From Eubacteriaceae bacterium (lineage in GTDB: Bacteria > Bacillota > Clostridia > Peptostreptococcales > Anaerovoracaceae): a stretch of 64,000 nucleotides of DNA. The stretch covers positions 496,001 to 560,000 of the forward strand of contig CABIXY010000004.1 in the NCBI GenBank assembly GCA_902362805.1, given 5' to 3'. Position 1 is the first letter of the stretch; each line of letters opens with the position of its first letter. The notes under the pieces are model-generated. The model saw only the letters and a program-made list of their open reading frames with translations, had not been told where the DNA came from and ran no database searches. Below are positions 6,287-61,510 of the stretch, piece by piece. Both the position numbers and the translations under genes were made by a program.

Positions 6287-6288
6287 GC

Positions 6289-7857: not shown

Positions 7858-7889
7858 TGCACCAAATGCATTTTTCCTGCACGAAATGC
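7858..7889 (-). promoter_or_regulatory. Direct-repeat operator, probable LytTR regulator site
   Basis: On the minus strand GCATTTCGTGCA and GCATTTGGTGCA (11 of 12 identical) start 20 bp apart, about two helical turns. Paired direct repeats with this spacing are typical of sites bound by LytTR response regulators. It precedes the Trp-rich ORF and the secreted-protein gene and lies downstream of a LytTR regulator gene. Confidence 0.6.
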
Positions 7890-7890
7890 A

Positions 7891-7918
7891 AAAGGACCGA
7901 CGCCCTCGTCGATCCTTT
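7891..7918 (-). terminator. Terminator after the GHKL kinase gene
   Basis: Stem AAAGGATCGACG / CGTCGGTCCTTT (one mismatch) with loop AGGG and a short T run on the minus strand, 13 bases after the kinase stop. Confidence 0.75.
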
Positions 7919-7930
7919 CTTTCTCCGTAT

Positions 7931-44273: not shown

Positions 44274-44301
44274 GCCGGCCTCCTCCTTCCCTGTACAGCA
44301 T

Positions 44302-44607: not shown

Positions 44608-45021
44608 CTAGTTTTCAGCTCTCTTTTTCAACGTTAATATATTTTTTCCGTCTTGATATTCATAGTAAATTTCATCCATGCTCTGTTTCACCATATAGAT
44701 GCCCAGACCCCCGATTTCTCGCTCTTCAGCCGAGAGGGTAACGTCAGGATCTTCCTTTTGCAATGGATTATAGGGCCTTCCTCGGTCAATGAATCGAATC
44801 GTTGCCTGTGAGGGTGCGGTCTCTGTCTCCACCCTTATGGTCACTTCCCCTACATAGGGTCTGTAAGCATAGCGGGCGATGTTGACAAACAATTCTTCAA
44901 TCGCTATATTGATCTGCACCTGTACTTTTGCAGGAAATTGACTGCGCTCTAAATTCGCGTCTATAAATTCCAGAACTCGGTCCAAACTCTCTGGAACAGC
45001 CTCCAACGTCATTTGTGCCAT
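44608..45021 (-). CDS. RsbW/SpoIIAB-like anti-sigma kinase
   Basis: 137-residue HATPase protein: VQVQINIAIEELFVNIARYAY carries the N-box, IRFIDRGRPYNPL the G1 region, and GGLGIYMVKQSMDEIYY the G2 region. It would phosphorylate the STAS protein and sequester a sigma factor or other target, none of which is obvious; the nearby ECF factor is not of the SigB class. ATG at 45021 is behind AGGAGGTG, which lies directly beside a hairpin repeat. Confidence 0.9.
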   Translation of the reverse strand: MAQMTLEAVPESLDRVLEFIDANLERSQFPAKVQVQINIAIEELFVNIARYAYRPYVGEVTIRVETETAPSQATIRFIDRGRPYNPLQKEDPDVTLSAEEREIGGLGIYMVKQSMDEIYYEYQDGKNILTLKKRAEN

Positions 45022-45037: not shown

Positions 45038-45143
45038 GGTTCTGCCCCAAAACTTGATTTTGGCTAGGCAGACCTTATGCTTTAAATCCCCAAGAGAGGG
45101 GCATCCTCTATGCCACTCGATTGGCTGGATTTTGTCGTATAAT
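45038..45143. repeat. Structured hairpin repeat between phosphatase and kinase genes (106 bp)
   Basis: Related to the tandem repeats at 52565. A first hairpin GGTTCTGCCCCAAAA / TTTTGG..GGCAGACC and a second AAATCC / GGATTT; a second truncated GGTTCTGCCCC unit follows. Compared with 52565 the stems differ by paired changes (AGCGCC/GGCGCT there). It ends at the AGGAGG ribosome site of the next gene and supplies the last codons and stop of the phosphatase gene. Confidence 0.8.
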
Positions 45144-47078: not shown

Positions 47079-47783
47079 CTATAAAAGCAGATAAAGCAAC
47101 AGCAGCAGAGAGATTGCATTCAGAAATCCCGCCGCAGCTTGGTTTCCTGGCAGCCAGCCTGTGAAAACACCGGCAGCGATGACAACCATCAATAGAGTAT
47201 AAGCGTTCAGTACAGGCTTTTTCATACTTTTCAGCCAGTTATATTTGCTTTTCTTTGCCTCTGCACAGACCAGATTGACTGAGTCAGAAGTCAGTACGAT
47301 GAACAGTGGCAGCCCCAAAGCTACAGAAAAGCCAAAATTGTTGAAAAGCACATAAGTAAAAATCGTCTCGATCCACGAATCAAAGAAATAGTAGAGGCCA
47401 AAACCGAGCATACAGGCAGCAGTCAGTGCTGATAAGGCTGATAAGAACACATAAAGGCTGATGTTCTTCCAGGTATGTACATTCGGTTCCTCTTTTTTCA
47501 ACAGATGCCACAGCTTATAAGGCAGATAGGCCGCTATAAAGTTAGCAAAGAATCCCAGAACCGATGTCAGATTGAAGGTTCCGAAGGCGTCGGCAATGAG
47601 GTTTCCGATTCCGCAGCCCAAGGCGCCGATCGAACCAAAGCTGAGCCCCGCCAACATAGGCACCGCATTGACCGGTCTGACCTCTGTAAATCCCTCCACC
47701 AGTACCATGACCTTGAAAGCTGCGCCCAGCACAGCAAAGACCGCTGTACAAATCAGAAATTGTTTCCCCTTTGATAATCTCAT
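47079..47783 (-). CDS. Stand-alone ECF-S-like membrane protein, paralogue of the phosphatase sensor domain
   Basis: 234 residues, about six helices. LVEGFTEVRPVNAVPMLAGLSFG, GIGNLIADAFGTFNLTSVLGF and AAYLPYKLWHLL match the N-terminal region of the SpoIIE-type phosphatase just downstream (11-bp gap). The family resembles QueT/ECF-S substrate-binding components, but no ECF ATPases are nearby. I infer a role as co-sensor or ligand-binding partner for the phosphatase. It overlaps the EamA gene by 4 bases. Confidence 0.78.
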   Translation of the reverse strand: MRLSKGKQFLICTAVFAVLGAAFKVMVLVEGFTEVRPVNAVPMLAGLSFGSIGALGCGIGNLIADAFGTFNLTSVLGFFANFIAAYLPYKLWHLLKKEEPNVHTWKNISLYVFLSALSALTAACMLGFGLYYFFDSWIETIFTYVLFNNFGFSVALGLPLFIVLTSDSVNLVCAEAKKSKYNWLKSMKKPVLNAYTLLMVVIAAGVFTGWLPGNQAAAGFLNAISLLLLLYLLL

Positions 47784-48676
47784 GTCTTCTGCTCCTTTCT
47801 CTTATCGAGGAAGTCCGTTCCCGCTACAACCGCGCCTGCCATGATAAACATGGCTCCCAGCAGAGACTCCAAGTGAAACACTTCTTTGGCGCCGAAGCTG
47901 GCCGGAATCAGTAAAGCTAGAATCAGTGTTACAATAGGCTCGGTGGAGGCGATGATGGTAACACTGACCGGGCTTGTATAGCGCTGAGAATACATCAGCA
48001 TGATGTAGGCGTACGCCTTTGCAAAGAATGCCAAAATAAAGATGGACGACAGCAGCTCTTTCGTATATTCGATGCTGGCGAAAGTCCGAGGCTCTTCTAT
48101 GAACCACAGCAAAAAACCGATGATCGCGGTAAAACACATCTGAACGACACCCAGGAGCAGGGGATCCGTACTCTTGGTAAAATAGTCTGCAGAGATGGTG
48201 TAGACTGCCATAAACAGACAAGCGATAATCATATAAAAAGTGCCCGCGTTGAGGAATCCACTCAGTGCAAATTCACTGGTCAATGCCAGACCAAAGAGAA
48301 TAATGGGAATCCCCAGCATGTTATTTTTCGTCGGATAGCGATGCAGCATCAACAGAAGTAAGGGAACAAATAAAATATTCAAAGAGGAGATAAAGCTGGC
48401 ATTAGAGGAAGGGAGCTGATTGATGCCAGCCTTCTCTGCCAAAAGATTTCCAGCCATGAGCAAGGACAGCAAAAAACCCTGCCCCAATATCCGCAGAGTG
48501 ATTTTTCGCAGCTGCTTTGCAAACACGATAACTAACACCACACTAGCTGTACCTGTGGTCAGTGTCAGATAGGCGTAAGATGATAAATCCGGCGGCAGGC
48601 TTTTGATAAAGACATAAGAAGCTGCCCAACAGAGAGTGATGGAAAATAGTACGATATTATTTTCTTTCCTCGTCAT
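47780..48676 (-). CDS. EamA/DMT family transporter
   Basis: 298 residues, ten helices in two EamA repeats (VLFSITLCWAASYVFIKSLP; YFTKSTDPLLLGVVQMCFTA). Drug/metabolite exporters of this type carry amino acids or other small metabolites; no specificity is visible. It is second in the operon beginning at 49147, 6 bases after the first gene. Confidence 0.9.
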   Translation of the reverse strand: MTRKENNIVLFSITLCWAASYVFIKSLPPDLSSYAYLTLTTGTASVVLVIVFAKQLRKITLRILGQGFLLSLLMAGNLLAEKAGINQLPSSNASFISSLNILFVPLLLLMLHRYPTKNNMLGIPIILFGLALTSEFALSGFLNAGTFYMIIACLFMAVYTISADYFTKSTDPLLLGVVQMCFTAIIGFLLWFIEEPRTFASIEYTKELLSSIFILAFFAKAYAYIMLMYSQRYTSPVSVTIIASTEPIVTLILALLIPASFGAKEVFHLESLLGAMFIMAGAVVAGTDFLDKRKEQKT

Positions 48677-49168: not shown

Positions 49169-49196
49169 TATACGAATTGCGGCGCAAATCGTCTCA
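49169..49196 (-). promoter_or_regulatory. ECF-type promoter A, for the phosphatase operon
   Basis: Minus strand TGAGAC (49191-49196), 16-bp spacer, CGTATA (49169-49174), 22 bp upstream of the DUF3574-like gene. Exact match in both boxes and spacer to three other promoters in the cluster (50602, 53651, 58685). Confidence 0.87.
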
Positions 49197-49238
49197 AAAA
49201 AAATTACACTTCTATCAAAATAATAAAAGTGTAATCTG

Positions 49239-50558
49239 TTAAAGTTCTTCTAGGATCAATACGATCTGCAGAATAAAGGTCTGCTCTTCTGTGTAGTAGC
49301 GCAGATACCCGTCGTATTTATCGACCACTCGCTGTATGCTTCGCATGCCAAAACCATGCTGTTCCTGCTCCTTGGTGGATTGCAAAAGTCCATTTTTCTC
49401 TCGCAGTATCCCGTCAAAACTGTTGCGGATATCGAAGATCAACTTTTTCTTTTCGTATCGCAGCCTTATATGCAGTTCTCTTTCTTTACAGACTTTTCTG
49501 CAGCCTTCCACTGCATTTTCCAGGGCGTTGCCTAAAAGCACGCTCAAATCCATCTCGTTGCAAAGTATCTTTGCAGGCAGATCCGCCTCGCAGCTGTAAG
49601 TGATATCTTCTGTTTCAGACAGCCAGGCGTAGTAACTCAATATGACATTGGCGGTGCCATTTCTGCAGTACACCTTCACCTCTTCCATCACATTCCTGAA
49701 GTTCAGCTCCTCCAGATAGGCTTCGATTTTTTCGTACTGTCTGCTGCTGCAATACTCTGAAATCATGCGGAAATGATGGGCCAGATCGTGGCGGATAATA
49801 CGGGTCTGCTCTAAAGTGTTCATCATGTTCTTATACTGCTGCTCCATCTGCGCGAGCCTCATACTGTTGATACGCTGTTCATTCTGCCGTTGTGCTTCTG
49901 CCAGACCTTTTTCAATTTCCTGGCTCAGATTTAAAATAGTATAGATGACCAATACTACAGCACAATATATGGTAAGAATTAAAAGGACGGCAAAGCCATA
50001 TTCTTTCGGACGTTCTGTGATGGGTTTTGGATAAGCAAAGAATACTACAAAAGCCAGATAGAATAAACCTGTGACAACTGCCATCAAGCTCCAGCCTTTA
50101 CTGACTGAGGCTAAGGCCTTCGCAAAAGGCTTTTTAACAAACCTCCACATCAGCCAGGCTGCCAGGAGCATCAGCGTACACCTGATAAGGACATGGGCGA
50201 TGGGCCGCCAGCCAAAGCATGTATCTACGACGATAAACCCCAAACCATTTATCGAAGTGATGGATAAAAGAGAAATAAAATAAGTGACGAGATATCTTCC
50301 TCCCTTATACTTTGAAAATACCCAGAACACCACGAAAGTGAGGGGTATCCAAATTGCCAGCATAGAATTGTTTGCCGCCATGATACCTTTGAAATGAGCG
50401 ACCGCAGCCATCATCAGCGCACACACTGACAGAGAAAAGACTGCCGTCATTTTATATCTTCTATTCACTTTTTGGGGAACGTAGACACTGAAAAAGGTGA
50501 TTAAAACGCATGCGATCATCACGATGTTGATGACAGTAAACTGATCTGCATTTAACAT
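49239..50558 (-). CDS. GHKL-family sensor histidine kinase (peptide-receptor type)
   Basis: 439 residues. Six or so N-terminal helices without a large extracellular domain, a coiled linker (EIEKGLAEAQRQNEQRIN), the H-box TRIIRHDLAHHFRMISEY, N-box LLGNALENAVEG and G-box HGFGMRSIQRVVDKYDG. This is the AgrC/PlnB/ComD type, whose ligands are secreted peptides. ATG 50558 follows AAGGAG. It has its own ECF-type promoter although its regulator lies just upstream, so receptor levels may be raised when the system is on. Confidence 0.92.
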   Translation of the reverse strand: MLNADQFTVINIVMIACVLITFFSVYVPQKVNRRYKMTAVFSLSVCALMMAAVAHFKGIMAANNSMLAIWIPLTFVVFWVFSKYKGGRYLVTYFISLLSITSINGLGFIVVDTCFGWRPIAHVLIRCTLMLLAAWLMWRFVKKPFAKALASVSKGWSLMAVVTGLFYLAFVVFFAYPKPITERPKEYGFAVLLILTIYCAVVLVIYTILNLSQEIEKGLAEAQRQNEQRINSMRLAQMEQQYKNMMNTLEQTRIIRHDLAHHFRMISEYCSSRQYEKIEAYLEELNFRNVMEEVKVYCRNGTANVILSYYAWLSETEDITYSCEADLPAKILCNEMDLSVLLGNALENAVEGCRKVCKERELHIRLRYEKKKLIFDIRNSFDGILREKNGLLQSTKEQEQHGFGMRSIQRVVDKYDGYLRYYTEEQTFILQIVLILEEL

Positions 50559-50601
50559 GAACGACTCCTTATCGACTCTTCTAAAGATGATTCTGATAAT
50601 A

Positions 50602-50629
50602 TATACGCATCCTTCGCAGAATTGTCTCA
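50602..50629 (-). promoter_or_regulatory. ECF-type promoter D, for the kinase gene
   Basis: Minus strand TGAGAC (50624-50629), 16-bp spacer, CGTATA (50602-50607), 44 bp upstream of the kinase start and inside the 99-bp gap after the regulator gene. Confidence 0.85.
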
Positions 50630-50657
50630 AAGCAGATCATATCAATGACAGTGTTAT

Positions 50658-51383
50658 TTACAATGTGGTTTTGAGGACATATTGGTAATACGCTTCTTTC
50701 AAAGCCTTCATCTCCTGTCTGCGGATAGGCACCTGCGTTCCGTCCTCCATGTGAAATACTTTATCTACCTTTATTACATTTTCAAAATTTACGATGAAGC
50801 TCTGATGGCAGCGGACGAAGCTTCTGCCCTCCACCTCATCCTCTACATCGACCAGCTTGGCGCTGATGCGGTGTACGTTTCCATCGCGCAAATGAATGTA
50901 AACGTAAGGTGTCTGGCTTTCCATATAGATGATGTCATTATAGGGAATCCGTTCCTGGGTCGTGCCGTTTTTCACTAAAAGACTTTCTTTTCTGTCGGCA
51001 TGAAAAAAGCGCACAAAATTGTCCAAAAGTTCCACCAGAGTTTCTGCCTTGATGGGTTTCAGCAGATAGCTGTATGCGTGAACGCCGTAACCAGCGAGGG
51101 CAAACTCATCGGTGGTGGTGATTAAGATGATGCTCACTTTCTTGTCGTACTGGCGAAGCTGTTCTGCCACCTTCATGCCGTGGGATTTTTTCATAAATAT
51201 ATCCAAAAAAATCGCATCAAAACAGGTGCCGTCTCCATCAGCATAGTCGTCAAGAAGCACGCTACCTTCTTCGTATTCTGTTATTTCAATTTTTTCGTTC
51301 CGTTTATAAAAATAAGCCGTCAAAACCTTTTTTACAAATTTCCGGTCCTCAGCAAAGTCATCACAGATTGCAAACCGTATCAT
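50658..51383 (-). CDS. LytTR-family response regulator
   Basis: 241 residues: intact receiver (ICDDFAEDRKFVKK; phospho-acceptor in AIFLDIFMKKSHGMKVA; Lys in YLLKPIKAE) and LytTR DNA-binding domain (RSFVRCHQSFIVNFENVIKV, DGTQVPIRRQEMKAL). Third gene after the sigma gene and the Cys-rich gene (28-bp gap), so sigma factor and regulator are made together. Partner of the GHKL kinase downstream; candidate binding repeats lie upstream of the sigma gene. Confidence 0.93.
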   Translation of the reverse strand: MIRFAICDDFAEDRKFVKKVLTAYFYKRNEKIEITEYEEGSVLLDDYADGDGTCFDAIFLDIFMKKSHGMKVAEQLRQYDKKVSIILITTTDEFALAGYGVHAYSYLLKPIKAETLVELLDNFVRFFHADRKESLLVKNGTTQERIPYNDIIYMESQTPYVYIHLRDGNVHRISAKLVDVEDEVEGRSFVRCHQSFIVNFENVIKVDKVFHMEDGTQVPIRRQEMKALKEAYYQYVLKTTL

Positions 51384-51411
51384 AAAAACTTCTCCTATAT
51401 AAAATGATTCA

Positions 51412-51636
51412 TTATCTTTTCGGTTTCACGCGGTTCAAGATGTGCCTGCAGACACTGTTCTCCAGCATGATCTCGTTAGACCTTCTGAAATCCGCATACC
51501 GGCAGTACCAACATTCTTTTACGTTATAAGTCATGGCGTCGTCTGGTTCAAAGTATCGACACACGTGGTCCGGCATGATGATCGGATATCCATCATTTGT
51601 AATACCAATTATACCACATACTTTTTTTTCTTCCAT
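51412..51636 (-). CDS. Small Cys-rich protein between sigma factor and response regulator
   Basis: 74 residues; unrecognised. ATG at 51636 behind GAGGAGATAG. Five Cys (C7, C26, the pair CWYC at 42-45, and C63 in VCRHI with a His two residues on) suggest metal or disulfide binding. No membrane segment. It sits 13 bases after the sigma gene, where anti-sigma factors of ECF factors commonly lie, but it has no recognised anti-sigma motif; that role is inference from position. Confidence 0.75.
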   Translation of the reverse strand: MEEKKVCGIIGITNDGYPIIMPDHVCRYFEPDDAMTYNVKECWYCRYADFRRSNEIMLENSVCRHILNRVKPKR

Positions 51637-51649
51637 CCTGCTATCTCCT

Positions 51650-52189
51650 CTATATGATATCTTCATAATGTATCCCTTTTTCCTGAAGATATTTCAGCAT
51701 CTTTTTCAGCGCCCTCTCGTGGAGGGTTCTGATCGTGCTGCTGTTCTTTCCAAGGCGGCTGCCAATCTCCGTAAAACTGAGACCTTCAAAATATCGAAGA
51801 TAGATAACTGGACGTTCCTTTTCGTTGAGTATAGCTATCAAAGCTTCTGTACTTCCTCGATACGCCTGCGTATATTCTCTGTAGGCGTCTTCAAAAGAGA
51901 GGGAATATTTGACTGAATCGACATAATCCTCGATATCGGATTCCAACTTCGCTTTTCTATAGTAGTCGATGACCGTGTTTCTGGCGATGGTGTAAATCCA
52001 AGTAGAAAAAGAGGCTTTCCGCTCATCAAATTTATCTATATTCTCTACTACCTTCATAAAAACGCTGCTGACCAAATCGTCACAGATGGCACTATTATTG
52101 ATCTGATAATATATGTAATTATATATTTTAGGGAAGAATTCTTTGTAAATATCAATCAATATTTCTTCTGTATCCCGTCGTCTCTCCAT
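51650..52189 (-). CDS. ECF-type sigma factor
   Basis: 179 residues. Region 2: ICDDLVSSVFMKVVENIDKF, FSTWIYTIARNTVIDYYRK. Region 4: VIYLRYFEGLSFTEIGSRLG and SSTIRTLHERALKKML. Regions 1.1 and 3 are absent, as in ECF factors. ATG 52189 follows GGAGGCACAG; an upstream frame to 52306 runs through the promoter region and is rejected. Four identical-spacing TGAGAC-N16-CGTATA promoters surround this gene and are its most likely targets; its own promoter lacks this motif and shows an extended -10 (TGCTATCAT) instead, so it is probably controlled by the LytTR regulator. Confidence 0.92.
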   Translation of the reverse strand: MERRRDTEEILIDIYKEFFPKIYNYIYYQINNSAICDDLVSSVFMKVVENIDKFDERKASFSTWIYTIARNTVIDYYRKAKLESDIEDYVDSVKYSLSFEDAYREYTQAYRGSTEALIAILNEKERPVIYLRYFEGLSFTEIGSRLGKNSSTIRTLHERALKKMLKYLQEKGIHYEDII

Positions 52190-52228
52190 TCTGTGCCTCC
52201 ATTCTGTCCCGCTGTGTAACCTACTGCC

Positions 52229-52294
52229 ATGATAGCAAAAAAAATTCCAAAAATAGTAAATCACCGATTTCTGCACTTTTTTCATTGAAATCTG
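52229..52294 (-). promoter_or_regulatory. Possible activator-dependent promoter of the sigma gene
   Basis: Minus strand: extended -10 TGCTATCAT (52229-52237) without a good -35. Upstream are CAGATTTCAATG (52283-52294) and CAGAAATCGGTG (52262-52273), imperfect direct repeats 21 bp apart (8 of 12 alike), the spacing of LytTR sites. A weak match; treat as a candidate. Confidence 0.4.
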
Positions 52295-52313
52295 TCGTTT
52301 CGTCAAAATACGA

Positions 52314-52350
52314 CAAAAGACTTTCTCACATTTTCATGTTCAGAAAGTCT
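52314..52350 (-). terminator. Terminator between the 65-residue gene and the sigma gene
   Basis: Perfect stem AGACTTTCT/AGAAAGTCT (52342-52350 with 52318-52326) followed on the minus strand by TTTTGTCG, right at the stop of the upstream gene. It insulates the sigma gene from the peptide operon. Confidence 0.82.
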
Positions 52351-52548
52351 TCAGCGTTTTTTCTTTTCTTTTAATTGTTCAATCGCTTTCTGCTCCTCTT
52401 TGCTGATTCCGGCAGCCGCGATCTGCTCCTCGTATTCCTCGGGGATCTCCCTTGCCCGCAGCTTCTGATAGCGCAGGAGGTCGAGTAGCAGGCTGTCTTT
52501 GATCCTGCTGTCCTTAGAAAAGTCCTTTCGTACCCATCTCTCATTCAT
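52351..52548 (-). CDS. 65-residue charged protein, last gene of the peptide operon, unknown
   Basis: Unrecognised. Charged and helical, beginning MNERWVRKDFSKDSRIKDSL, ending with basic EQLKEKKKR; no Cys, no GG leader, no membrane segment. AGGAGG precedes the start by 6-9 bases. It lies after the three peptide genes and the tandem repeats and before a terminator, so it may be an accessory or immunity-like product, but without a membrane segment immunity is uncertain. Confidence 0.65.
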   Translation of the reverse strand: MNERWVRKDFSKDSRIKDSLLLDLLRYQKLRAREIPEEYEEQIAAAGISKEEQKAIEQLKEKKKR

Positions 52549-52564
52549 CAACGTTCCTCCTAAT

Positions 52565-52756
52565 GGTCCTGCCCCAAATCTTTGATTTGGCTTGGCAGAC
52601 CTTATGCTTTAGCGCCCCACAAGCGTCAGCGAGTGGCTAGGCGCTAGTCGTATAATAGGTCCTGCCCCAAATCTTTGATTTGGCTTGGCAGACCTTATGC
52701 TTTAGTGCCCCACAAGCGTCAGCGAGTGGCTAGGCGCTAGTCGTATAATAGGTCCT
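52565..52756. repeat. Two tandem 93-bp structured hairpin units
   Basis: Units start at 52565 and 52658, with a third start at 52751; they differ at one base. Each has hairpin 1 (GGTC, TGCC and CCAAATC pairing with GATTTGG, GGCA, GACC) and hairpin 2 (TTAT..AGCGCC pairing with GGCGCT..ATAA). A diverged relative at 45038 keeps the pairing with different bases. The first unit ends at the AGGAGG of the 65-residue gene. Confidence 0.85.
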
Positions 52757-52777
52757 CACCTTCTATAACGGGCGCCA

Positions 52778-52801
52778 GCTATGTACCTTACGCACATAGC
52801 T
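52778..52801 (-). promoter_or_regulatory. Stem-loop after the peptide genes
   Basis: Perfect 8-bp stem AGCTATGT/ACATAGCT with an 8-base loop, 19 bases after the last peptide stop, with no T run. Likely protects the peptide mRNA 3' end or partly limits read-through. Confidence 0.6.
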
Positions 52802-52819
52802 GTCCTACCCATCGTTGTT

Positions 52820-53065
52820 TTAGTCGTTTCTCACGGAGCAGACATGCCAGCTGTCATCTTTCATCAGCTTGGTACATGCGCCGCAGGTATTCTTGAATGC
52901 CAGAAGCTTCAAGTTATAGAAATTTGATCCCGGATCATAGTACGGGCAATTCTTTGCAGAGGTCAAGGCTGTGGTAATCCTGTGTCCGTTATGGACGGCA
53001 GCACCGCCGTCTACACTTTCAAGTTCCATCTCGCTGAGCTCTGTCGGCATCTTCTTTTCTTCCAT
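52820..53065 (-). CDS. Double-glycine-leader four-cysteine peptide 1
   Basis: 81 residues; ATG 53065 behind AAGGAGGATC. Leader of 21 residues ending ELSEMELESVDGG, the class II bacteriocin/peptide-pheromone type cut after GG by C39 peptidases. Predicted mature peptide of 60 residues with Cys at 19, 40, 43 and 55. Shared with its two paralogues: GHxIxT near the start, SAKxCxYY, GxNFYN, TCGAC and WHxC. The four Cys could form two disulfides or bind metal. No known bacteriocin family is recognised; antimicrobial or signalling function is inferred from leader and exporter. Confidence 0.88.
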   Translation of the reverse strand: MEEKKMPTELSEMELESVDGGAAVHNGHRITTALTSAKNCPYYDPGSNFYNLKLLAFKNTCGACTKLMKDDSWHVCSVRND

Positions 53066-53078
53066 GTCCAGATCCTCC

Positions 53079-53324
53079 TTACTCGTTTCTCGCATCGCAC
53101 AGATGCCAACCGAATTCTGAAATCATGTGTACGCAGGCGCCGCAGGTATTGCTGATGCCTATGACCTTTTTGTTGTAGAAGTTGCTGCCTGCCTCATAGA
53201 ACGGGCATCCCTTTGCAGAGCTGACTCCCGTTATAATCCTGTGTCCGTTAAATACACCGGATCCACCGTCTACGCTCTGAATTTCTTCTTCCGTCAATTC
53301 TACTGCTTTCTTTTCCTCTGTCAT
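53079..53324 (-). CDS. Double-glycine-leader four-cysteine peptide 2
   Basis: 81 residues. Leader MTEEKKAVELTEEEIQSVDGG (21 residues, written to its GG) and 60-residue core SGVFNGHRIITGVSSAKGC... with the same four Cys spacing (C-x20-C-x2-C-x11-C). Differs from peptide 1 mainly in the loop before TCGAC and in the last ten residues. Strong ribosome site AAGGAGGAAAG. Middle gene of the three, 20 and 13 bases from its neighbours. Confidence 0.88.
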   Translation of the reverse strand: MTEEKKAVELTEEEIQSVDGGSGVFNGHRIITGVSSAKGCPFYEAGSNFYNKKVIGISNTCGACVHMISEFGWHLCDARNE

Positions 53325-53344
53325 CTTACTTTCCTCCTTTAAAT

Positions 53345-53605
53345 TTACACTTCACAGGTTCTCGCTCTGCACACATGCCAACCATCGTCATTCATCAAAT
53401 GTTTGCACGCGCCGCAGGTTCTGTTAATCGCCAAAATATGTTCGTTATAGAAGTTTCTTCCCGCTTCATAATACTGGCAGGTCTTCGCACTGGTGATTCC
53501 CGTTGTGATCATGTGGCCGTAGTAAAAGCCATTGTCTCCGCCGTCTACAGCCTCAATTTCCTCATCAGTCAGCTCTGTGACCTTTTTTTCTTTTTCTTCA
53601 ACCAT
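53345..53605 (-). CDS. Double-glycine-leader peptide 3, with an extra cysteine
   Basis: 86 residues. Leader of 23 residues ending ELTDEEIEAVDGG; 63-residue core beginning DNGFYYGHMITTG, with the four conserved Cys and a fifth near the C-terminus (RTCEV). The odd Cys could allow dimerisation or attachment. First peptide gene after the ECF-type promoter at 53651; ATG behind AATGGAGGAAAC. Most diverged of the three. Confidence 0.88.
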   Translation of the reverse strand: MVEEKEKKVTELTDEEIEAVDGGDNGFYYGHMITTGITSAKTCQYYEAGRNFYNEHILAINRTCGACKHLMNDDGWHVCRARTCEV

Positions 53606-53650
53606 ATTGTTTCCTCCATTGACATCCTTTGCGATTGCCTTGTATCTATA

Positions 53651-53678
53651 TATACGGCGCAGACGTCAAAGTGTCTCA
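53651..53678 (-). promoter_or_regulatory. ECF-type promoter C, for the peptide operon
   Basis: Minus strand TGAGAC (53673-53678), 16-bp spacer, CGTATA (53651-53656), 46 bp before the first peptide gene and 8 bp after the exporter stop. Confidence 0.87.
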
Positions 53679-53685
53679 AAAGTTT

Positions 53686-55860
53686 TTAGACCATCTGTCT
53701 TTTTACCAATTCTGCAAATTTTCCGTTCAGTTCCACCAACTGGTCAAAGGTGCCGTCCTCGGCGATTTTGCCGTTTTCCAGATAGATGATGCGGTCGCAC
53801 TGCTTGATGGTAGACAGGCGGTGGGCGATGACGATCCTGGTGCTCCTGAGGCCGCTGAGGGATTCTGACACCTGCTTCTGGGTGATGTTGTCAAGGGCGC
53901 TGGTCGCCTCGTCGAACATGATGATCTTCGGCTTCGGCGCAATGGCCCTGGCAATCATGATTCTCTGCTTCTGACCGCCGGAAATGCCGCCGCTGCCCTC
54001 AGAAATGACGGTGTGCATGTTCATGGGCATCCGCTGGATGTCCTCAGCGATACCAGCCATTCTCGCCGCCTCCCAGGCGTCGTCAAGTCCCAGCCATGGA
54101 GCTGAGACTACGATATTGGAATAGATGTCTCCTGCAAAGAGGGAACTGTTCTGCATGACGACCCCGATATTGCGGCGGACCGACTTCACGTCCAGGGAGT
54201 TCAAATCCTTACCGTCAAAGTACACCGATCCCGTCTGCGGTTTTTCAAAGCCCAGCAGGATACGCATCAGCGTAGACTTGCCGCAGCCGGTTTTGCCGAC
54301 GATGGCCACATACTGGTTCGGTCTGATTTTCAAAGAGAGGTTGTCGATGATCTTCGGACCGCCCTGAGAATATTGAAAGGAGATGTTGCTCAGCTCAATG
54401 GAACCGTTCAGCTTGGTCACCGCCTTCTTGTTTTCCTCCACTTCCGGCATGGTTTTCATGATCGGTTCCACCATCTCCATAGCCGGCTTGATATCGGAAA
54501 TCACGTTGGTAATACTGGACAGACCCATGATCGCCGTGCTCACCAGGCCGTAGGACGTGGTGAAGGCCATGTAGTCAGCCGCCGATACGCCAGTCACCGC
54601 CGCAATGTAATAGAGCACCAGCAGATTGCCGAAGGTGAAGACCACCGAAAATACCGGCGCCAGCCTGATGATTATCGGCGGATTGTATTCCAGATCTGCG
54701 CTGGTCCTGTAAGTCTTTGCCCAGCGTCCGAACATCCTCTTCTCAGAGCCTGACAGCTTGATCTTCTGAATGCCGGAAAAGAGGGCGAACACCATGCCGT
54801 TCAGCCTGGCGTTGGCAGCCAGCCGCTTGCGGGAATAACCCAGTTGCAGAATACTGCTGACCATGGTGTAGACCAGGTTCAGCAGCAGGATGGCTACAGC
54901 CGTAACAGCCAGCGCCTTTGAATACCTGGTGATCTGCACCACGTAGACGATGGAAAACACGGCAGTCAGACCCGTATTCATGAGGGTATCCTGCAGCATC
55001 TTCGACAGCGTATCCATGTTCTCCAGCCGTTTAGAAAGCTCTCCGGAGGAATAGGTCTTGAAAAACCCTGCCGGCAGCAGAAGCAGCCTGGCCATGGAGG
55101 CACTTTTCACCGCAATGCTCAATTTTTTCTCTATCTTCGCGTCCAAGATCGTGTTGCAGATGCCGAACAGGTTGTTTGCGACGAGGGAGGTGACCACCAG
55201 AATCGCCATGGGCAGCACGTAGAAGCTGACCCCTGCCGGTATGACACTGGAAAAGATTATCTGCGTCGCATAAGGCGTGATCAGGCCGATCAGGCTTACC
55301 ACCAGGGTCAGCACCGCCACATAGGCATAATCCCAAAAACTCAGGGACTTTGCCATGAAGATGACCAGGTCTTTGATGTTCAGTGATTTCAACGGAAAAG
55401 CGCGGTAGAAGCAGTAGGCGTCCCCTTCAAACTCTTCCGCCACTTTCTTCGTCACCCGCACCCGCCTGTCTTTTTGCTTGTCAAAATAGCTGTATCCACT
55501 GGTATGACTGGGCAGAAGCGCCACCACCGTGCCGTCCTTCTTCGCGGCCAGAATCGGATTGATGGAATCCTTGTACCAGGTATCCGTCAGCTCGATGCGC
55601 CTTCTCATGGCGCCTGTGGGCCGCAGCATGTATTCGATCTGATCGTTCAGGTCTTTGATTTCTTCCGGAACCTCTACGATTTTTACGTGAAGGTATTTCA
55701 AAATCGCTTCTATGGCGCTTTGGGATTCTTCCCTGCTGTTTTCCATCTTCTCTCTGCCTGCTGAGGGCATGACCACAGAGGACAAATCCTGAAAGGCACC
55801 CTCAAAGAGCTCATTATCTTTTGCTTTTCTTTCTTCTAGTTGTTCTCCAAACCAGCTCAT
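53686..55860 (-). CDS. NHLP-type peptide export ABC transporter, permease/ATPase subunit without peptidase
   Basis: 724 residues. The N-terminal 160 residues are a soluble domain (DTWYKDSINPILAAKKDGTVV, then SYFDKQKDRRVRVTKK) like that of the NHLM/NHLP bacteriocin-system permease/ATPase, then six helices (about 175-440) and an ATPase domain: Walker A VGKTGCGKSTLMRI, Q-loop VVMQNSSLF, signature ISGGQKQRIMIARAI, Walker B IIMFDEATSALD. It has no C39 peptidase and pairs with the peptidase-bearing ABC protein encoded 9 bases upstream, likely as a heterodimer. Its substrates are presumably the three peptides just downstream. Confidence 0.88.
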   Translation of the reverse strand: MSWFGEQLEERKAKDNELFEGAFQDLSSVVMPSAGREKMENSREESQSAIEAILKYLHVKIVEVPEEIKDLNDQIEYMLRPTGAMRRRIELTDTWYKDSINPILAAKKDGTVVALLPSHTSGYSYFDKQKDRRVRVTKKVAEEFEGDAYCFYRAFPLKSLNIKDLVIFMAKSLSFWDYAYVAVLTLVVSLIGLITPYATQIIFSSVIPAGVSFYVLPMAILVVTSLVANNLFGICNTILDAKIEKKLSIAVKSASMARLLLLPAGFFKTYSSGELSKRLENMDTLSKMLQDTLMNTGLTAVFSIVYVVQITRYSKALAVTAVAILLLNLVYTMVSSILQLGYSRKRLAANARLNGMVFALFSGIQKIKLSGSEKRMFGRWAKTYRTSADLEYNPPIIIRLAPVFSVVFTFGNLLVLYYIAAVTGVSAADYMAFTTSYGLVSTAIMGLSSITNVISDIKPAMEMVEPIMKTMPEVEENKKAVTKLNGSIELSNISFQYSQGGPKIIDNLSLKIRPNQYVAIVGKTGCGKSTLMRILLGFEKPQTGSVYFDGKDLNSLDVKSVRRNIGVVMQNSSLFAGDIYSNIVVSAPWLGLDDAWEAARMAGIAEDIQRMPMNMHTVISEGSGGISGGQKQRIMIARAIAPKPKIIMFDEATSALDNITQKQVSESLSGLRSTRIVIAHRLSTIKQCDRIIYLENGKIAEDGTFDQLVELNGKFAELVKRQMV

Positions 55861-55869
55861 AGTACCCTC

Positions 55870-58014
55870 CTATTCCGTGGTGATCAGCTGGGTGTAGAGG
55901 TCGCCCTTTGCCATCAGCTCTTCATGGGTGCCTCTTTCCACAACTTCACCGTAATTCATAACGACGATTTCATCACAGTCCCGAATGGTCGAAAGACGAT
56001 GGGCCACGATGATGCAGGTGATCCCGCGGTTCTTGATGGCGTTGATGACCTCGTACTCCGTCTTTGCGTCCAGGGCGCTGGTCGCTTCGTCCATGATGAC
56101 GATGCTGGGATCCTGCGCCAGTACGCGGGCAATCTCCAGTCTCTGCCGCTGTCCGCCAGAGAAGTTCTTTCCGCCCTCGGTCAGCTTGCAGTCGTAGCCT
56201 TCGCGGAGTATGATTTCTTCGTGCATGCTGGCGTCTTTTGCCGCCATAATCATCTCAAAATCTTCGATGGACTGGTCCCACATCTTGATATTGTTCCTGA
56301 TGGAGTCTTCAAACAGGATGATGTCCTGATCCACGACAGCCACAGAGCTGGTGAAGATCATGTGGTTCAGCTCCTCCATAGGTTTCCCGTCAAATTCGAT
56401 GGTGCCGGACCACGGTTTGTACAGTCCCGAAATCAGCTTGGTCATGGTGGATTTGCCGCAGCCGGAGCCGCCCACAAAGGCCACCTTTGATCCTGGCTTG
56501 ATGTCGATGCTGAAGTCTTTGATCAGGGCTGGAGAATTGGTGCTGTAGCCAAAGGTCACATCCTTTAGGCGGATATCGCCGCTCAGCTTTTTTGCCCCTG
56601 CAAGGGATTCGCTCTCGTCTTTGGTATAATCCACATCGGCCGGATATTCCATGACATCCTCCACCCTCTCCATAGACGCCCGCATCTGCTGCACGGTAGT
56701 ACCCACGTTGATCAAGGACAACGCCGGTGAGAGGAATTCTGCAATAAATCCCTGAAAGGCCATGAGCATACCGACGGTAAAATCGCCGTTGATGATCAGC
56801 AATGCGCCGATGAGCAGCACGGAGCTGTTAGCCAGGGAAGTCAGAAACTGGGGTATGCTGTTCATGTAAATATTGGTCTTCAGCACTCTGTTGTTTTCTA
56901 CCGATTCCCTGGCGATGAAGCCGGACCACCGCTCGAAGAAGCCGTTTTCTGCTCCGGCGGCTTTGATGGTCTCAATCATCTCGATGCCAGAGGTGGTGGT
57001 GCTGTCCACCTTGCCCCTTTCACGCATAGCCACACGGCTGATGTTCATAATTTTGTTGGATATGTAACCTGCCGAAAACAGATTGATTGCCACAGTGACC
57101 AGCCCCACGACGGTCAGAACTGCGCTGTATCTGAGCATGATGGTCAGATACAGAATCAGGGTCAGCAGATCCAGCCCCGCCGGCGCCAGCTCACCTACCA
57201 GGGTATTGGTGATAGACTGGTTCAGGCCTTGCCGCCCCACCAGATCTCCGGCATTCCTCTGTGAAAAGAAGTTCATGGGCAAACGGAGAACGTGCCACAT
57301 GAATTCCGAGTTGGCCGTAATGGCAAACTTACCCTGTATCTTACGCAGGTAACTCGCCTGCAGGTAATTGACGACAATGCTGAAGACAAGGACGATTGCC
57401 ATGATTCCAATAAATGGCATCAGCCAGTCCGACTGGCCTTTGGTCAGAATGCTGTCCATAAAGACCTTGGAAAACAGCGGCTGTATAATGCCGACTACAG
57501 TGATGAAAACGGTCGTGATAAAGACGAAGATGACAGCGGATTTCGTTCCCCGCAGCCTCTTCCCGGCAAAATTCATCACGCTGCGTTTCTCTCCGCCGAT
57601 CTCGAAGTCATCGTTCTTCTCAAACATGATTACTACGCCTGTAAAGGCTCTGTCAAATTCCTTCATGGAGACTGTCACCCGCCCTCGAGCCGGGTCGTTG
57701 AGGACAGCGCCCTTTTTTGTAAATCCGCATAGGACAACAAAGTGATTAAAATTCCAATGTATAATTGCTGGGAAAGAGATCTCCTGAACCATATCCAGCT
57801 CGTAGCGGAAGGCTCTCGCCGTCAGACCATAATCAGCCGCCGCTGATTTGATCGCCTTGACGCTGGTCCCGTCTCTGGATACGCCGCAGGCCATGCGTAC
57901 CTTTTCCAGCGGTTCCACCCGCCCGTGGTAGCCTAGGATCATGGCTAAGGATGCAGCCCCGCATTCCAGGGCTTCCATCTGCATGACAACTGGTACTTTG
58001 ATTGGTTTTGCCAT
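55870..58014 (-). CDS. C39 peptidase-containing ABC exporter (NHLP type)
   Basis: 714 residues. An N-terminal C39 domain removes GG leaders: catalytic Cys18 in MEALECGAAS, His91 in WNFNHFVVL and Asp107 in LNDPARG. Six helices follow (about 160-430), then the ATPase: Walker A GGSGCGKSTMTK, signature FSGGQRQRLEIARVLA, Walker B IVIMDEATSALD, H-loop IIVAHRL. All catalytic residues are intact, so leader cleavage after SVDGG/AVDGG is expected during export. Middle gene of the exporter operon; ribosome site AGGAGG. Confidence 0.93.
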   Translation of the reverse strand: MAKPIKVPVVMQMEALECGAASLAMILGYHGRVEPLEKVRMACGVSRDGTSVKAIKSAAADYGLTARAFRYELDMVQEISFPAIIHWNFNHFVVLCGFTKKGAVLNDPARGRVTVSMKEFDRAFTGVVIMFEKNDDFEIGGEKRSVMNFAGKRLRGTKSAVIFVFITTVFITVVGIIQPLFSKVFMDSILTKGQSDWLMPFIGIMAIVLVFSIVVNYLQASYLRKIQGKFAITANSEFMWHVLRLPMNFFSQRNAGDLVGRQGLNQSITNTLVGELAPAGLDLLTLILYLTIMLRYSAVLTVVGLVTVAINLFSAGYISNKIMNISRVAMRERGKVDSTTTSGIEMIETIKAAGAENGFFERWSGFIARESVENNRVLKTNIYMNSIPQFLTSLANSSVLLIGALLIINGDFTVGMLMAFQGFIAEFLSPALSLINVGTTVQQMRASMERVEDVMEYPADVDYTKDESESLAGAKKLSGDIRLKDVTFGYSTNSPALIKDFSIDIKPGSKVAFVGGSGCGKSTMTKLISGLYKPWSGTIEFDGKPMEELNHMIFTSSVAVVDQDIILFEDSIRNNIKMWDQSIEDFEMIMAAKDASMHEEIILREGYDCKLTEGGKNFSGGQRQRLEIARVLAQDPSIVIMDEATSALDAKTEYEVINAIKNRGITCIIVAHRLSTIRDCDEIVVMNYGEVVERGTHEELMAKGDLYTQLITTE

Positions 58015-58024
58015 GATGCGCCTC

Positions 58025-58621
58025 CTACTCTAAAATCAGTTCTATCGGTTTTTGATTCTCGACTACGGCAAGAGCGGTACCGGTAGAACCTTTTTTGACC
58101 GTAACGTCTTTCCCTTTACTGCTGGACCAGGCAATGCCGCTAGCAGTTTCTTTGTCGCTGTCAAAAGAAATAGTCACCAGAATTCCTACAGAATCTGGCA
58201 TCAGATAGCCGGCCAGTTCTTTATTCTTGACCAGGCTGACGATTTCTTCTTCGGATACAGGAAATTCACCAATGCTTTCGACTCTGCCTTTCATGTATCC
58301 ATAGGTCTCGCGGTCAGCCGTACTTGGAGAAACCTGTACTTCCATTCCCGTCTTCAATTCCGCCGCAGTTTCTACAGATACCACTGCGGCCATTTTGTCG
58401 CAGCGTTCCTGTTCCTCGCTGGCATAAAAGGCGCCCGACAGGTTTTCCGTGAGAGGAATGTTTCCTAAAAACCCCCAGGCCAGTCCTCCCAGCAGCAGCA
58501 ATCCTAAAGCCGCCAGCATGATGACGACACTGGGGTTGATGACCTTGATGTAGTCATTCATCTTTTCCGGGGAAGAGATCCGCTCCAGGTTTGATTTTCT
58601 AAATACTTCTTTGTTATCCAT
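58025..58621 (-). CDS. Short HlyD-like secretion protein of the NHLP system
   Basis: 198 residues: cytoplasmic N-terminus, one helix (VVIMLAALGLLLLGGLAWGFLG) and an extracytoplasmic beta-barrel part (LKTGMEVQVSPSTADRETYGY, GRVESIGEFPVSEEE). Much shorter than HlyD/ComB adaptors, with no long coiled-coil hairpin, matching the short 'NHLM bacteriocin system secretion protein' type. First gene of the exporter operon, 11 bases before the C39 exporter gene; its promoter is ECF-type promoter B. Confidence 0.87.
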   Translation of the reverse strand: MDNKEVFRKSNLERISSPEKMNDYIKVINPSVVIMLAALGLLLLGGLAWGFLGNIPLTENLSGAFYASEEQERCDKMAAVVSVETAAELKTGMEVQVSPSTADRETYGYMKGRVESIGEFPVSEEEIVSLVKNKELAGYLMPDSVGILVTISFDSDKETASGIAWSSSKGKDVTVKKGSTGTALAVVENQKPIELILE

Positions 58622-58684
58622 GCCTTCCTCCTATCGTAGTCTGCGACCCTTGGGCAGACTGATTTACTTCACCTATACCTTTTG

Positions 58685-58712
58685 TATACGGCGCGATAGG
58701 CAAAACGTCTCA
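58685..58712 (-). promoter_or_regulatory. ECF-type promoter B, for the exporter operon
   Basis: Minus strand TGAGAC (58707-58712), 16-bp spacer, CGTATA (58685-58690), 64 bp before the secretion-protein gene and just after the terminator of the upstream OpuF operon. Confidence 0.87.
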
Positions 58713-58726: not shown

Positions 58727-58750
58727 AGCTGCCACTGCGGCAGCTTTTCA
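58727..58750 (-). terminator. Terminator after the second OpuF-type operon
   Basis: Perfect stem AGCTGCC/GGCAGCT with a 5-base loop, followed on the minus strand by CTTTTTTTC. It separates the OpuF operon from the exporter operon. Confidence 0.9.
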
Positions 58751-58790: not shown

Positions 58791-60368
58791 TTAAATCAGA
58801 CCCTGCTCCTTGGCAAACTCTCTTGCCACGTCAGCTGGTTCTTTTCCTTTTTCATCTACCTGGTAATTCAGTTCCTGCATGACCTCGTTGGTGAGGATCT
58901 TGCTCAGTTTATTGATGACGTCTTCCAGTTCTGGATACTTTTCAAGCATCTCTTCGTTGATGATTGGAATCGCATAGTACGGAGGGAAGAATCCGTCGCT
59001 GTCTTCCAGGACCTTCAGGTTGTACTTTTTCAAAAGGCCGTCGGTTGCATATGCATCAACGATGTCCGTATTGCCATTTTTCAAAGCCGTAAATCTCGGC
59101 GATCCGTCGATGGCTACAGTCTTTTTAAAGTGAAAACCATATTTTTTCAAAAGACCTGGCAGACCGTCGTCCGGTCTGTTCTGGAATTCCATCGTTGTGC
59201 CCAGTGACAGCTGAGAGTCACACTTGAGCAGATCTTTCATGGTCGAAAGGCCGTATTTCTTTGCTGTCTCCTGAGAGACCGCCAGAGTATAGGTATTGTT
59301 AAAGTTAGCCTGTTCCAAAACTTTGATCTTGTACTTCTCATGCAGCGCTGTTTTGCACTCGTCATAGACTGCCTGCATATCCGACTTGGCCGGTTGATTG
59401 AGGATATTGACATAAATCGTGCCAGTATAGTCCACATACATGTCGATTTCACCTTTTTTCAAGGCCTCAAAGCAGACCTGGCTGCCGCCTAAGTTTTCTT
59501 TTCGAACCACATTGATATCCGTATCGTGTTCAATGACGTCGGCATATAAGTTACAGAGGATCAGCTGCTCGGTGAAGTCCTTGCTGCCTATGGTAATGGT
59601 CTTTTCTTCCTGGTTCATGTTTCCAATCACCGTATTTCCTACTAAGACTACAATCAAAGCCGCGGCGACTGCCAAGACGATTTTCTCTCTTTTTCTCTTC
59701 TTTTTCAGTTCCGCCTTTGCTGTGCCGAAAGCACTCTGCAAACTGATCGGCGTTACTAATTTTTCTACCAGCCCCATGAGGAAGTCTACCAGAAGGGCTA
59801 AGAGACATGCCGGAATGGCTCCGGCCAGAATCTGCAGATTATTGACCGTTCTGATACCTGAGAAAACCAGATATCCCAAACCGCCTGCACCGATAAATGC
59901 CGCCATGGTCATGAGCCCCACTGCGGTTACAGCGGAAATTCGCACACCTGCCATGATGACTGGCAGTGCCATGGGAATTTTGACCTTGGCCAGGACCTGC
60001 CACTTCGTTAACCCAATCCCCTTTGCCGCTTCTACCAGATCCGGATCGATGCTGGCGATACCAGTATAGGTATTTTTAATAATCGGCAGCAGCGAGTAGA
60101 TGATAACCATAACTACCGCCGGTAAGGCTCCGATGCCGAGAAGCGGTATGGCTAGACCGAGAAGCGCCATGCTCGGTATTGCCTGTACCACATTGGCCAC
60201 ACCAATAATGGGCTTATCCAGCTTTTTGACATAACTGATCAAAATGCCGAGCGGCACGCCGATGAGGATGGCAAATCCCACAGCGATGGCTGTCATTTCG
60301 ATATGTTCCATGAGCAGATCTGCAATCTGCCCCAGATGCTGGGTCATGTATTTAAATAGTGCAATCAT
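58791..60368 (-). CDS. opuFB: OpuF-type osmolyte ABC importer, permease fused to binding domain, copy 2
   Basis: 525 residues, same length and architecture as copy 1 at 39523. The permease half is nearly identical (MTAIAVGFAILIGVPLGILI, AKGIGLTKWQVLAKVKIPMA); the binding domain differs more (VVRKENLGGSQVCFEALKKG; QNRPDDGLPGLLKKYGFHFK). Ligand class glycine betaine/choline/carnitine; different specificity from copy 1 is a reasonable guess. The stop and start codons of the two genes overlap by one base. Confidence 0.93.
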   Translation of the reverse strand: MIALFKYMTQHLGQIADLLMEHIEMTAIAVGFAILIGVPLGILISYVKKLDKPIIGVANVVQAIPSMALLGLAIPLLGIGALPAVVMVIIYSLLPIIKNTYTGIASIDPDLVEAAKGIGLTKWQVLAKVKIPMALPVIMAGVRISAVTAVGLMTMAAFIGAGGLGYLVFSGIRTVNNLQILAGAIPACLLALLVDFLMGLVEKLVTPISLQSAFGTAKAELKKKRKREKIVLAVAAALIVVLVGNTVIGNMNQEEKTITIGSKDFTEQLILCNLYADVIEHDTDINVVRKENLGGSQVCFEALKKGEIDMYVDYTGTIYVNILNQPAKSDMQAVYDECKTALHEKYKIKVLEQANFNNTYTLAVSQETAKKYGLSTMKDLLKCDSQLSLGTTMEFQNRPDDGLPGLLKKYGFHFKKTVAIDGSPRFTALKNGNTDIVDAYATDGLLKKYNLKVLEDSDGFFPPYYAIPIINEEMLEKYPELEDVINKLSKILTNEVMQELNYQVDEKGKEPADVAREFAKEQGLI

Positions 60369-61510
60369 TACTGACTCACCGTCCCTTCCGTACTGTCTTC
60401 CGTCAGGAACTGTTTACTCAGTGTAGAGACCAGGTTACTGTTAGTCAAAAGTCCCACTAGTCTTTCCTCTTCGTCGAGAACAGGAATATTGTTGACTTCT
60501 GTCTCTTCTACCATCTTGAGCACATCGACGATATTGTCTCCTACATGAGAAACATAGGCTACTTCGTTCATAATATCCTCTGCCTGCATTAAAGGTCTGC
60601 TGGCTTTAAATAGATTTTTTCTACCGACGATGCCGCGCAGTTTTTTCTCGTCGTCGACCACCAGCAGCGTATCGATATGATGATCTCTCATGCGCTTGAT
60701 ACATCTGTTCCTAATCATGTCGCCTTTACAGGTGATTGGGTTTTTAATCATAAAGTCTTCTACCTTTATGTATTCTGGGGAATCCCATATCCTGTTGGTA
60801 CCGACGAAGTTGGCTACAAATTCGTCAGCCGGCTGTTTTAGGATCGTTTCCGGCGTATCAAACTGAAGGATGTGACCGCCTTTCATAATGCAGATCCTGT
60901 CTGCAATTTTGATAGCCTCGTCCATATCGTGGGTAACAAAGACCATAGTCTTCCCTACCTTGGATTGCAGCTCGATCAGTTCATCCTGCAGACTGCTTCT
61001 AGTTACAGGGTCCAGGGCCGAGAAAGGTTCATCCAATAAAATGATATCAGGGTCGTTGGCAAGGGCCCTGATGACGCCGATTCTCTGTCGCTGTCCGCCT
61101 GAAAGCTCTGTCGGGTATCTGTCAAGAAACTGATCAGGATCCAGATCCACCATCTTCATCAGTTTCTTGGTGTTTTCCACAATCTCTTCAGGACTTTTCT
61201 TTTCCATGCGCTCGATAATCTCGATGTTCTGACGAATGGTCATATGGGGAAACAGGCCGCCCTGCTGGATGACGTAACCCATGTTCCTGCGAAGCTGGAC
61301 TTTGTCCATCTCTTCGATATTCTTTTCATCGATAAAAATCTTGCCTTTACTTGTTGGTATTAATCTGTTGATCATTTTCAGCGTCGTTGTCTTTCCGCAA
61401 CCGCTGGGACCGATGAGGACGGTCAGTTCACCGTCACCTATGTCCATAGAAATGTCTGATAAGACGACGTTACCTTTGAATTCTTTCGTAACGTCTCGAA
61501 ATTGAATCAT
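60368..61510 (-). CDS. opuFA: OpuF-type osmolyte ABC importer ATPase with CBS domains, copy 2
   Basis: 380 residues, closely similar to copy 1 at 41097 along its whole length. Walker A GPSGCGKTTTLK, signature LSGGQRQRIGVIRALA, Walker B IILLDEPFSALD, and C-terminal tandem CBS domains (TLLVVDDEKKLRGIVG, NNIPVLDEEERLVGLL). First gene of the operon, under a plain SigA-type promoter without the tandem repeats seen in front of copy 1. Confidence 0.93.
   Translation of the reverse strand: MIQFRDVTKEFKGNVVLSDISMDIGDGELTVLIGPSGCGKTTTLKMINRLIPTSKGKIFIDEKNIEEMDKVQLRRNMGYVIQQGGLFPHMTIRQNIEIIERMEKKSPEEIVENTKKLMKMVDLDPDQFLDRYPTELSGGQRQRIGVIRALANDPDIILLDEPFSALDPVTRSSLQDELIELQSKVGKTMVFVTHDMDEAIKIADRICIMKGGHILQFDTPETILKQPADEFVANFVGTNRIWDSPEYIKVEDFMIKNPITCKGDMIRNRCIKRMRDHHIDTLLVVDDEKKLRGIVGRKNLFKASRPLMQAEDIMNEVAYVSHVGDNIVDVLKMVEETEVNNIPVLDEEERLVGLLTNSNLVSTLSKQFLTEDSTEGTVSQ

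Follow-up and report, generated by a model that had tools for sequence, protein, structure and literature searches.

Four matching promoter-like sites and an ECF sigma factor as their candidate reader at a clostridial double-glycine peptide export locus

In clostridia, the dedicated sigma factors TcdR, UviA, and BotR switch on secreted proteins or bacteriocins of their own locus, and in Bacillus, sigma-B and sigma-F are the familiar cases of partner switching. The usual three-component signaling set combines a C39 exporter and double-glycine peptides with a GHKL kinase and a LytTR regulator. The streptococcal Com/SigX system unites, as the locus described here would, peptide signaling, a response regulator that governs bacteriocin synthesis, and an alternative sigma factor whose regulon includes the regulator (comE), which according to the account in PMC4497675 is driven directly by SigX. 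On the export side, the locus resembles the NHLP/Nif11 export clusters described by Haft and colleagues in 2010 (PMC2887384), with which it shares the TIGR03796 and TIGR03797 subunits and an HlyD-type protein; the main text of that founding paper contains no word beginning with sigma. Searches of open-licence full text showed no paper that links ECF sigma factors to NHLP exporters in its title or abstract start. Here, we describe such a combination in a 64-kb window (the whole stretch of DNA analyzed), the features of which are collected in Table 1.

Table 1. Features of the peptide export locus and of the neighboring DUF3574-SpoIIE-GGDEF run, in window coordinates. Distances to the ATG are counted from the end of the −10 box.
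Feature	Coordinates	Strand	Basis
Terminator-like hairpin with T tail, just upstream of site 1	58727–58745		Hairpin followed by T run
Promoter-like site 1, before exporter genes	58685–58712	−	Exact match; 63 bases before ATG (HlyD-like)
Short HlyD-like secretion protein, 198 aa	58025–58621	−	TIGR03794, 126.5 bits, below cutoff 156.2
Exporter subunit 1: C39 peptidase, permease, ATPase	55870–58014	−	TIGR03796, 912.8 vs cutoff 853.3; Peptidase_C39
Exporter subunit 2: permease, ATPase	53686–55860	−	TIGR03797, 728.6 vs cutoff 709.4
Promoter-like site 2, before peptide genes	53651–53678	−	Exact match; 45 bases before ATG (peptide A)
Peptide A, double-glycine leader and Cys-rich core	53345–53605	−	ORF; alignment
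Peptide B	53079–53324	−	ORF; 7 database relatives
Peptide C, start at second in-frame ATG (ORF opens at 53095)	52820–53065	−	ORF; alignment
Terminator-like hairpin between peptide unit and sigma gene	52317–52351	−	Inverted repeat; fold z −5.5
ECF sigma factor	51650–52189	−	TIGR02937, 101.9 vs cutoff 42.9; Sigma70_r2 and r4
Small Cys-rich protein (ORF opens at 51666, overlapping sigma)	51412–51636	−	ORF; no family match
LytTR response regulator	50658–51383	−	Response_reg and LytTR
Promoter-like site 3, before kinase	50602–50629	−	Exact match; 43 bases before ATG (kinase)
GHKL sensor kinase, 439 aa, N-terminal half hydrophobic	49239–50558	−	HATPase_c_5; hydropathy
Promoter-like site 4, before DUF3574-SpoIIE run	49169–49196	−	Exact match; 21 bases before ATG (DUF3574)
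DUF3574 protein, hydrophobic N-terminal segment	48683–49147	−	PF12098
EamA-type transporter	47780–48676	−	PF00892
QueT-like membrane protein	47079–47783	−	PF06177
SpoIIE phosphatase with QueT-like membrane part	45082–47067	−	PF07228
RsbW-like HATPase	44608–45021	−	PF13581
STAS protein, anti-anti-sigma type	44302–44598	−	PF01740
GGDEF protein	43386–44309	−	PF00990

An exact two-box element at four places

The earlier note had described TGAGAC-N16-CGTATA in front of the exporter operon, the peptides, the GHKL kinase, and the phosphatase/diguanylate cyclase operon, with no other copy carrying the second box in the window. Our analysis bears this out: the 64-kb window contains exactly four exact copies, each on the minus strand, with ATGs 21–63 bases downstream, and no copy with one mismatch occurs in the window. 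When up to two mismatches are allowed, six matches are obtained (the four exact copies and two with two mismatches, at 25275 and 33502), compared to a mean of 3.0 in shuffled windows, with 9 of 100 shuffles reaching six, such that only the exact matches form an informative class. To guard against a word picked in hindsight, every 6+6 word with a spacer of 13–20 was then enumerated, and at least four copies more than 500 bases apart were required. The only word to pass in the window was TGAGAC-N16-CGTATA, including its shifted and reverse-strand forms, and none of 20 simulated first-order Markov windows held any passing word. A matrix built from the four sites, the common core of which is TTTGAGAC-N16-CGTATA, scores 35.6–39.6 bits at the sites themselves and 15.3 at the next-best window position. 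Across 12 whole genomes of the order, TGAGAC-N15-17-CGTATA gave 4 matches vs 11 for the reversed control; the word is thus unenriched in the order, and four copies in 9.5 kb are far above background.

The flanks are less uniform than had been described. The T run said to precede every site is long at 58712 and 49196, where it is the tail of terminator-like hairpins of the preceding genes, but is reduced to TT or TTT at the other two, and the T or second TATA-like base said to follow CGTATA is a T at three sites and a C at the remaining one. The hairpin just upstream of site 4 is strong (z −6.2 for the fold of 49199–49250), and the presence of hairpins immediately before sites 1 and 4 speaks in favor of promoters there.

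A CGT −10 box is typical of ECF promoters as described in PMC8103513, and CGTATA fits this description; the −35 box TGAGAC has GAC where the usual ECF box has AAC, which counts against an explanation as ECF promoters. Based on the CGT-type −10 box, the four exact copies, the ATGs just downstream, and other genomes in which these gene blocks run co-linearly with the exporter and show linkage to sigma relatives, we consider it well supported that TGAGAC-N16-CGTATA, with its common core, is an ECF-type promoter and that the genes behind the four copies form one co-regulated set.

The shared element could also be the operator of a DNA-binding regulator, located beside housekeeping promoters. LytTR-type regulators can bind near promoters, one such regulator is encoded in the locus, and TATATA-like bases follow CGT at three of the four sites. 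However, the exact two-box spacing, the fact that neither box is repeated, the position right before ATGs, and the CGT second box all fit a promoter, and a sigma-70 promoter scan of the window lists no promoter at the four sites. We consider an operator very improbable.

Both ABC subunits of the exporter score above their NHLP family cutoffs, while the match of the HlyD-like protein covers just the C-terminal part of the TIGR03794 model and scores below its cutoff. Each of the three peptides has a short leader ending in GG, followed by a Cys-rich core. A peptide fold prediction had a mean pLDDT of 44, and we place no weight on it. The best scores of peptides A and C against the class II bacteriocin models (TIGR03949 and PF10439) are 16.3 vs 21.5 and 14.6 vs 27.1, and for peptide B, the relatives P0061 and P0063 were scanned and also lie below these cutoffs. 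The family scans of the window genes showed no modifying enzyme. Double-glycine peptides, C39 exporter, GHKL kinase, and LytTR regulator are thus all found in one locus. Behind site 4, where genes overlap or are separated by gaps of at most about 60 bases, a SpoIIE phosphatase, an RsbW-like kinase, and a STAS gene stand together, the gene set of a putative partner-switching module.

A 93-base tandem duplication (99% identical, 52565–52750) lies in the stretch that leads from the peptides to the sigma gene; each unit contains a hairpin, and the window has no further copy of the repeat. On either side, the region is flanked by a pair of OpuC/CBS-type ABC transporter genes (39523–42248 and 58791–61510), and the two pairs resemble each other.

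The candidate reader and the proposed circuit

The sigma factor encoded among the four sites consists of regions 2 and 4 only (179 aa) and scores above the TIGR02937 family cutoff, as an ECF sigma factor does; it stays below the cutoff of the BldN-type ECF model (TIGR02952, 118.7 vs 206.45). It is likely the reader of the four sites. Directly downstream of it, the small Cys-rich protein displays a cysteine order (C-C..C-C) like that of the peptide cores, and is possibly an intracellular relative of these; one weak match to it was found, in locus L121.

We consider it reasonably probable that the locus encodes a double-glycine peptide circuit, in which the local ECF sigma factor reads the four promoters and switches on the peptides, the exporter, the kinase, and a partner-switching output. 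The C39 exporter would cut the peptides at the double-glycine site, upon which they would leave the cell; the GHKL kinase would sense a peptide and signal via the LytTR regulator, which in turn would control the adjacent sigma gene. The sigma factor would then complete a positive loop by turning on the kinase along with the peptides and the exporter, and would also turn on the SpoIIE/HATPase/STAS partner-switching output together with the GGDEF protein.

PMC8103513 describes a co-encoded anti-sigma factor and autoregulation as hallmarks of ECF sigma factors, and neither is evident here: no anti-sigma family match was obtained among the neighbor genes of the sigma factor, and scanning the 64-kb window gave no motif copy before the sigma gene. 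These two absences count against the circuit that we propose. They also make it likely that this sigma factor would be regulated by its supply, through the kinase/LytTR pair; control of ECF expression by two-component systems has been described (PMC8103513). A search before the sigma gene for a LytTR operator, in the form of a 12-base direct repeat with 9 matches at a spacing of 19–24, gave none, which is a further point against the circuit.

The regulon may be real and the peptides nevertheless be bacteriocins or effectors and not a signal, in which case the kinase would sense something else, such as envelope damage. With their length and many cysteines, the cores of the window peptides do not resemble short pheromones, and these peptides bear a weak likeness, below cutoffs, to class II bacteriocin leaders. 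Weighing against this, the kinase itself lies behind one of the four promoters, and the locus holds the complete set of genes usual for three-component signaling. We thus regard bacteriocins or effectors as a possible but somewhat doubtful alternative to signaling.

Relatives of the locus in other genomes

The window likely comes from a relative of the gut species Emergencia timonensis. A protein named from Emergencia ti... shares 95% identity with exporter subunit 1, and one from Qiania dongpi... shares 74%. The 95% identical Emergencia exporter lies on a 4.4-Mb contig, and no contig in the sigma clusters of at least 60% identity is longer than about 88 kb; the sigma factor may be absent from the genome of that exporter. 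The sigma relative P0007 and the 93% identical exporter relative P0066 are both on contigs of 15,499 bases, and the sigma relative P0011 and the peptide relative P0061 are both on contigs of 76,772 bases. We infer that each pair shares one contig, and the pairings support a linkage between sigma factor, exporter, and peptides. A broad ECF search of genome contigs gave sigma relatives of up to 39% identity among the matches listed. At strict thresholds, close sigma relatives were found in none of 397 genomes of the G001 family, 383 of the G001 order, 297 of the G403 order, and 71 of the G443 family (overlapping sets; with no known positive among them, the empty results carry no weight), and exporter subunit 1 was found in none of the 71 genomes of the G443 family at E 1e-150. 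There were no confirmed sigma or peptide relatives on viral contigs and no peptide matches on plasmids, where 121 records have sigma matches, all below 60% identity.

Both exporter subunits stand beside the sigma gene in 4 of the 80 ECF loci listed (L001, L010, L013, and L021, with sigma factors of 33–38% identity). Approached from the exporter side, the 383 genomes of the G001 order contain subunit 2 (E ≤ 1e-140) in 46 genomes at 52 places, the best 40 of which were examined (L091 and L119–L157). Sigma profile matches occur in 12 of these 40 loci; the sigma gene is co-oriented and within ~1.2 kb of the exporter in 10 (L119, L122, L124, L129, L132, L142, L151, L152, L155, and L156, L151 and L152 being near duplicates) and is farther away or turned in L143 and L154. 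For 20 of the 40 loci, 18.5 kb from another part of the same contig served as control. Beside the exporter, compared to 0/20 controls in every case, we found sigma genes in 7/20 (including L143; p 0.004), SpoIIE in 7/20 (p 0.004), STAS in 10/20 (p 0.0002), and HATPase in 6/20 (p 0.01). The differences are not significant for LytTR (2 vs 0), GHKL (2 vs 1), DUF3574 (1 vs 0), EamA (2 vs 0), and QueT (2 vs 0), again 20 against 20, and the lack of enrichment of GHKL and LytTR counts against our preferred circuit. For the putative c-di-GMP output that had been proposed for the regulon, the basis is one GGDEF gene at the end of the tightly spaced run of the window; GGDEF genes stand beside 4/20 exporters vs 1/20 controls, which is not significant (p 0.17).

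Individual layouts show that genes tied together by the motif in the window are neighbors elsewhere. In L125, a DUF3574-EamA-QueT-SpoIIE-HlyD-ABC1-ABC2 order lies on one strand, followed on that strand by two long-leader peptide genes with GG sites and then by a STAS gene; in L133, the exporter is followed by one other gene and then DUF3574-EamA-QueT; a SpoIIE-STAS-HATPase run leads into the exporter in L126; and L119 joins LytTR, GHKL, exporter, and sigma genes. Genome G1074 was not counted as support: its sigma gene with a good profile match lies ~14 kb before the DUF3574 gene of the exporter block, beside genes that look conjugative, and has no TGAGAC copy.

In L155 and L156, sigma, STAS, and HATPase genes share one gene run, and sigma and STAS genes are together in L010, L151, and L152. 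It is conceivable, although unlikely, that the partner-switching cascade itself controls the ECF sigma factor, such that the state of the peptides and their export would be read by partner switching in a hitherto undescribed system across clostridia. If true, RsbW-type control of an ECF sigma factor would be a new regulatory link in the Firmicutes.

Several small proteins accompany these loci. In nine loci (L010, L013, L021, L119, L122, L151, L152, L155, and L156), the gene for one such protein overlaps the sigma gene or directly precedes it. This protein has L[FM]D[YF]Q[RK] close to its start and AAG behind an acidic stretch, and its end resembles a double-glycine leader; it could be exported as a peptide or act as a sigma partner. 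The window ORF at 52351–52548 is a weak candidate for this type and was not accepted: it ranked 178th when pooled with 5,000 shuffles (5,001 in total) and third among the 311 ORFs of the window. Locus L013 contains a row of long-leader peptides (4869–8207), with cores ending in C..CK....E.GL..CN that resemble the C..C..........C ends of the window peptides, although the leader differs, and beside an exporter in L127, approximately nine successive genes encode Cys-rich double-glycine peptides (1324–4526).

The −10 word recurs in these loci with other −35 words. CGTATA is combined with [CT]TGCC[AG]-N15-17 in L021, L151, and L152 and at two sites each in L155 and L156, and with GTCGC-N17 twice in L142. 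In an alignment of 13 sigma relatives (excluding L132), five have SYG..KLRH in region 4, and these are exactly the five with the [CT]TGCC[AG] form; these patterns were chosen after seeing the sequences, the five loci represent three lineages, and the form is also present in 2 of 30 exporter loci without a near sigma gene (L141 and L145). The correspondence therefore offers support, and not proof, for a −35 word that would follow sigma region 4 across loci. The intergenic density of CGTATA is little higher in loci that have a sigma gene than in those that lack one (0.81 vs 0.50 per kb), which counts against the proposed circuit; CGTATA alone is not diagnostic. Shared −35 five-mers between pairs of CGTATA amount to 24 words in 401 pairs at sigma loci, 17 of them in the window (3 from the tandem repeat), to 13 in 1,165 pairs at other exporter loci, and to 7 in 615 pairs at control loci. 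A large secreted-looking repeat protein stands behind a TTGCC-CGTATA site in L155 (1308–4160, with Flg_new_2 repeats) and in L156 (1323–4094), and may be another target of the sigma factor encoded at each of these loci.

The window form itself has a counterpart in genome G1034, where TGAGAC-N17-CGTATA, one of the four matches in the 12 genomes, precedes SpoIIE in exporter locus L126. This genome gave just general ECF matches, and a site without a close sigma relative counts against reading by the local sigma factor. Another ECF sigma factor, encoded elsewhere, could then read the four sites as ECF promoters, and the local one would have other targets; the missing motif copy before the local sigma gene and the presence of several ECF genes per clostridial genome agree with this. 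However, all four sites fall in a 10-kb stretch that surrounds the local sigma gene, with no further copy in the 64 kb, and relatives of this sigma factor are linked to such exporters. On balance, we find a distant reader quite improbable and retain the local sigma factor as the preferred one.

Comparison with known systems

The four promoters and one candidate sigma factor constitute a testable regulon for a peptide export system in gut clostridia. More broadly, NHLP exporters travel with ECF sigma factors and SpoIIE/STAS/HATPase genes in the G001 order (G001 itself belongs to the Lachnospiraceae) and in a probable Emergencia relative. If −35 boxes are locus-specific and CGTATA is common to them, these loci would supply synthetic circuits with promoters that are naturally distinct from one another.

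With sigma-B and sigma-F, the window shares a SpoIIE phosphatase, an RsbW-like HATPase, and a STAS protein encoded in a row, but no gene of sigma-B or sigma-F type was noted beside them. As with TcdR, UviA, and BotR, a dedicated sigma factor is present at its own locus; those proteins, however, form a separate sigma group, whereas the window sigma factor fits the general ECF model. From the NHLP/Nif11 clusters, the window differs in the short double-glycine leaders of its peptides and in the lack of a modifying enzyme among the scanned window genes. By analogy, the nearest system in logic would be streptococcal Com/SigX, as portrayed in PMC4497675. There, the sigma factor is SigX and not an ECF sigma factor with NHLP exporter genes, and in S. 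mutans it is induced by ComRS (PMC4497675), whereas in the window an ECF sigma gene lies beside LytTR and GHKL genes and a partner-switching run belongs to the putative regulon.
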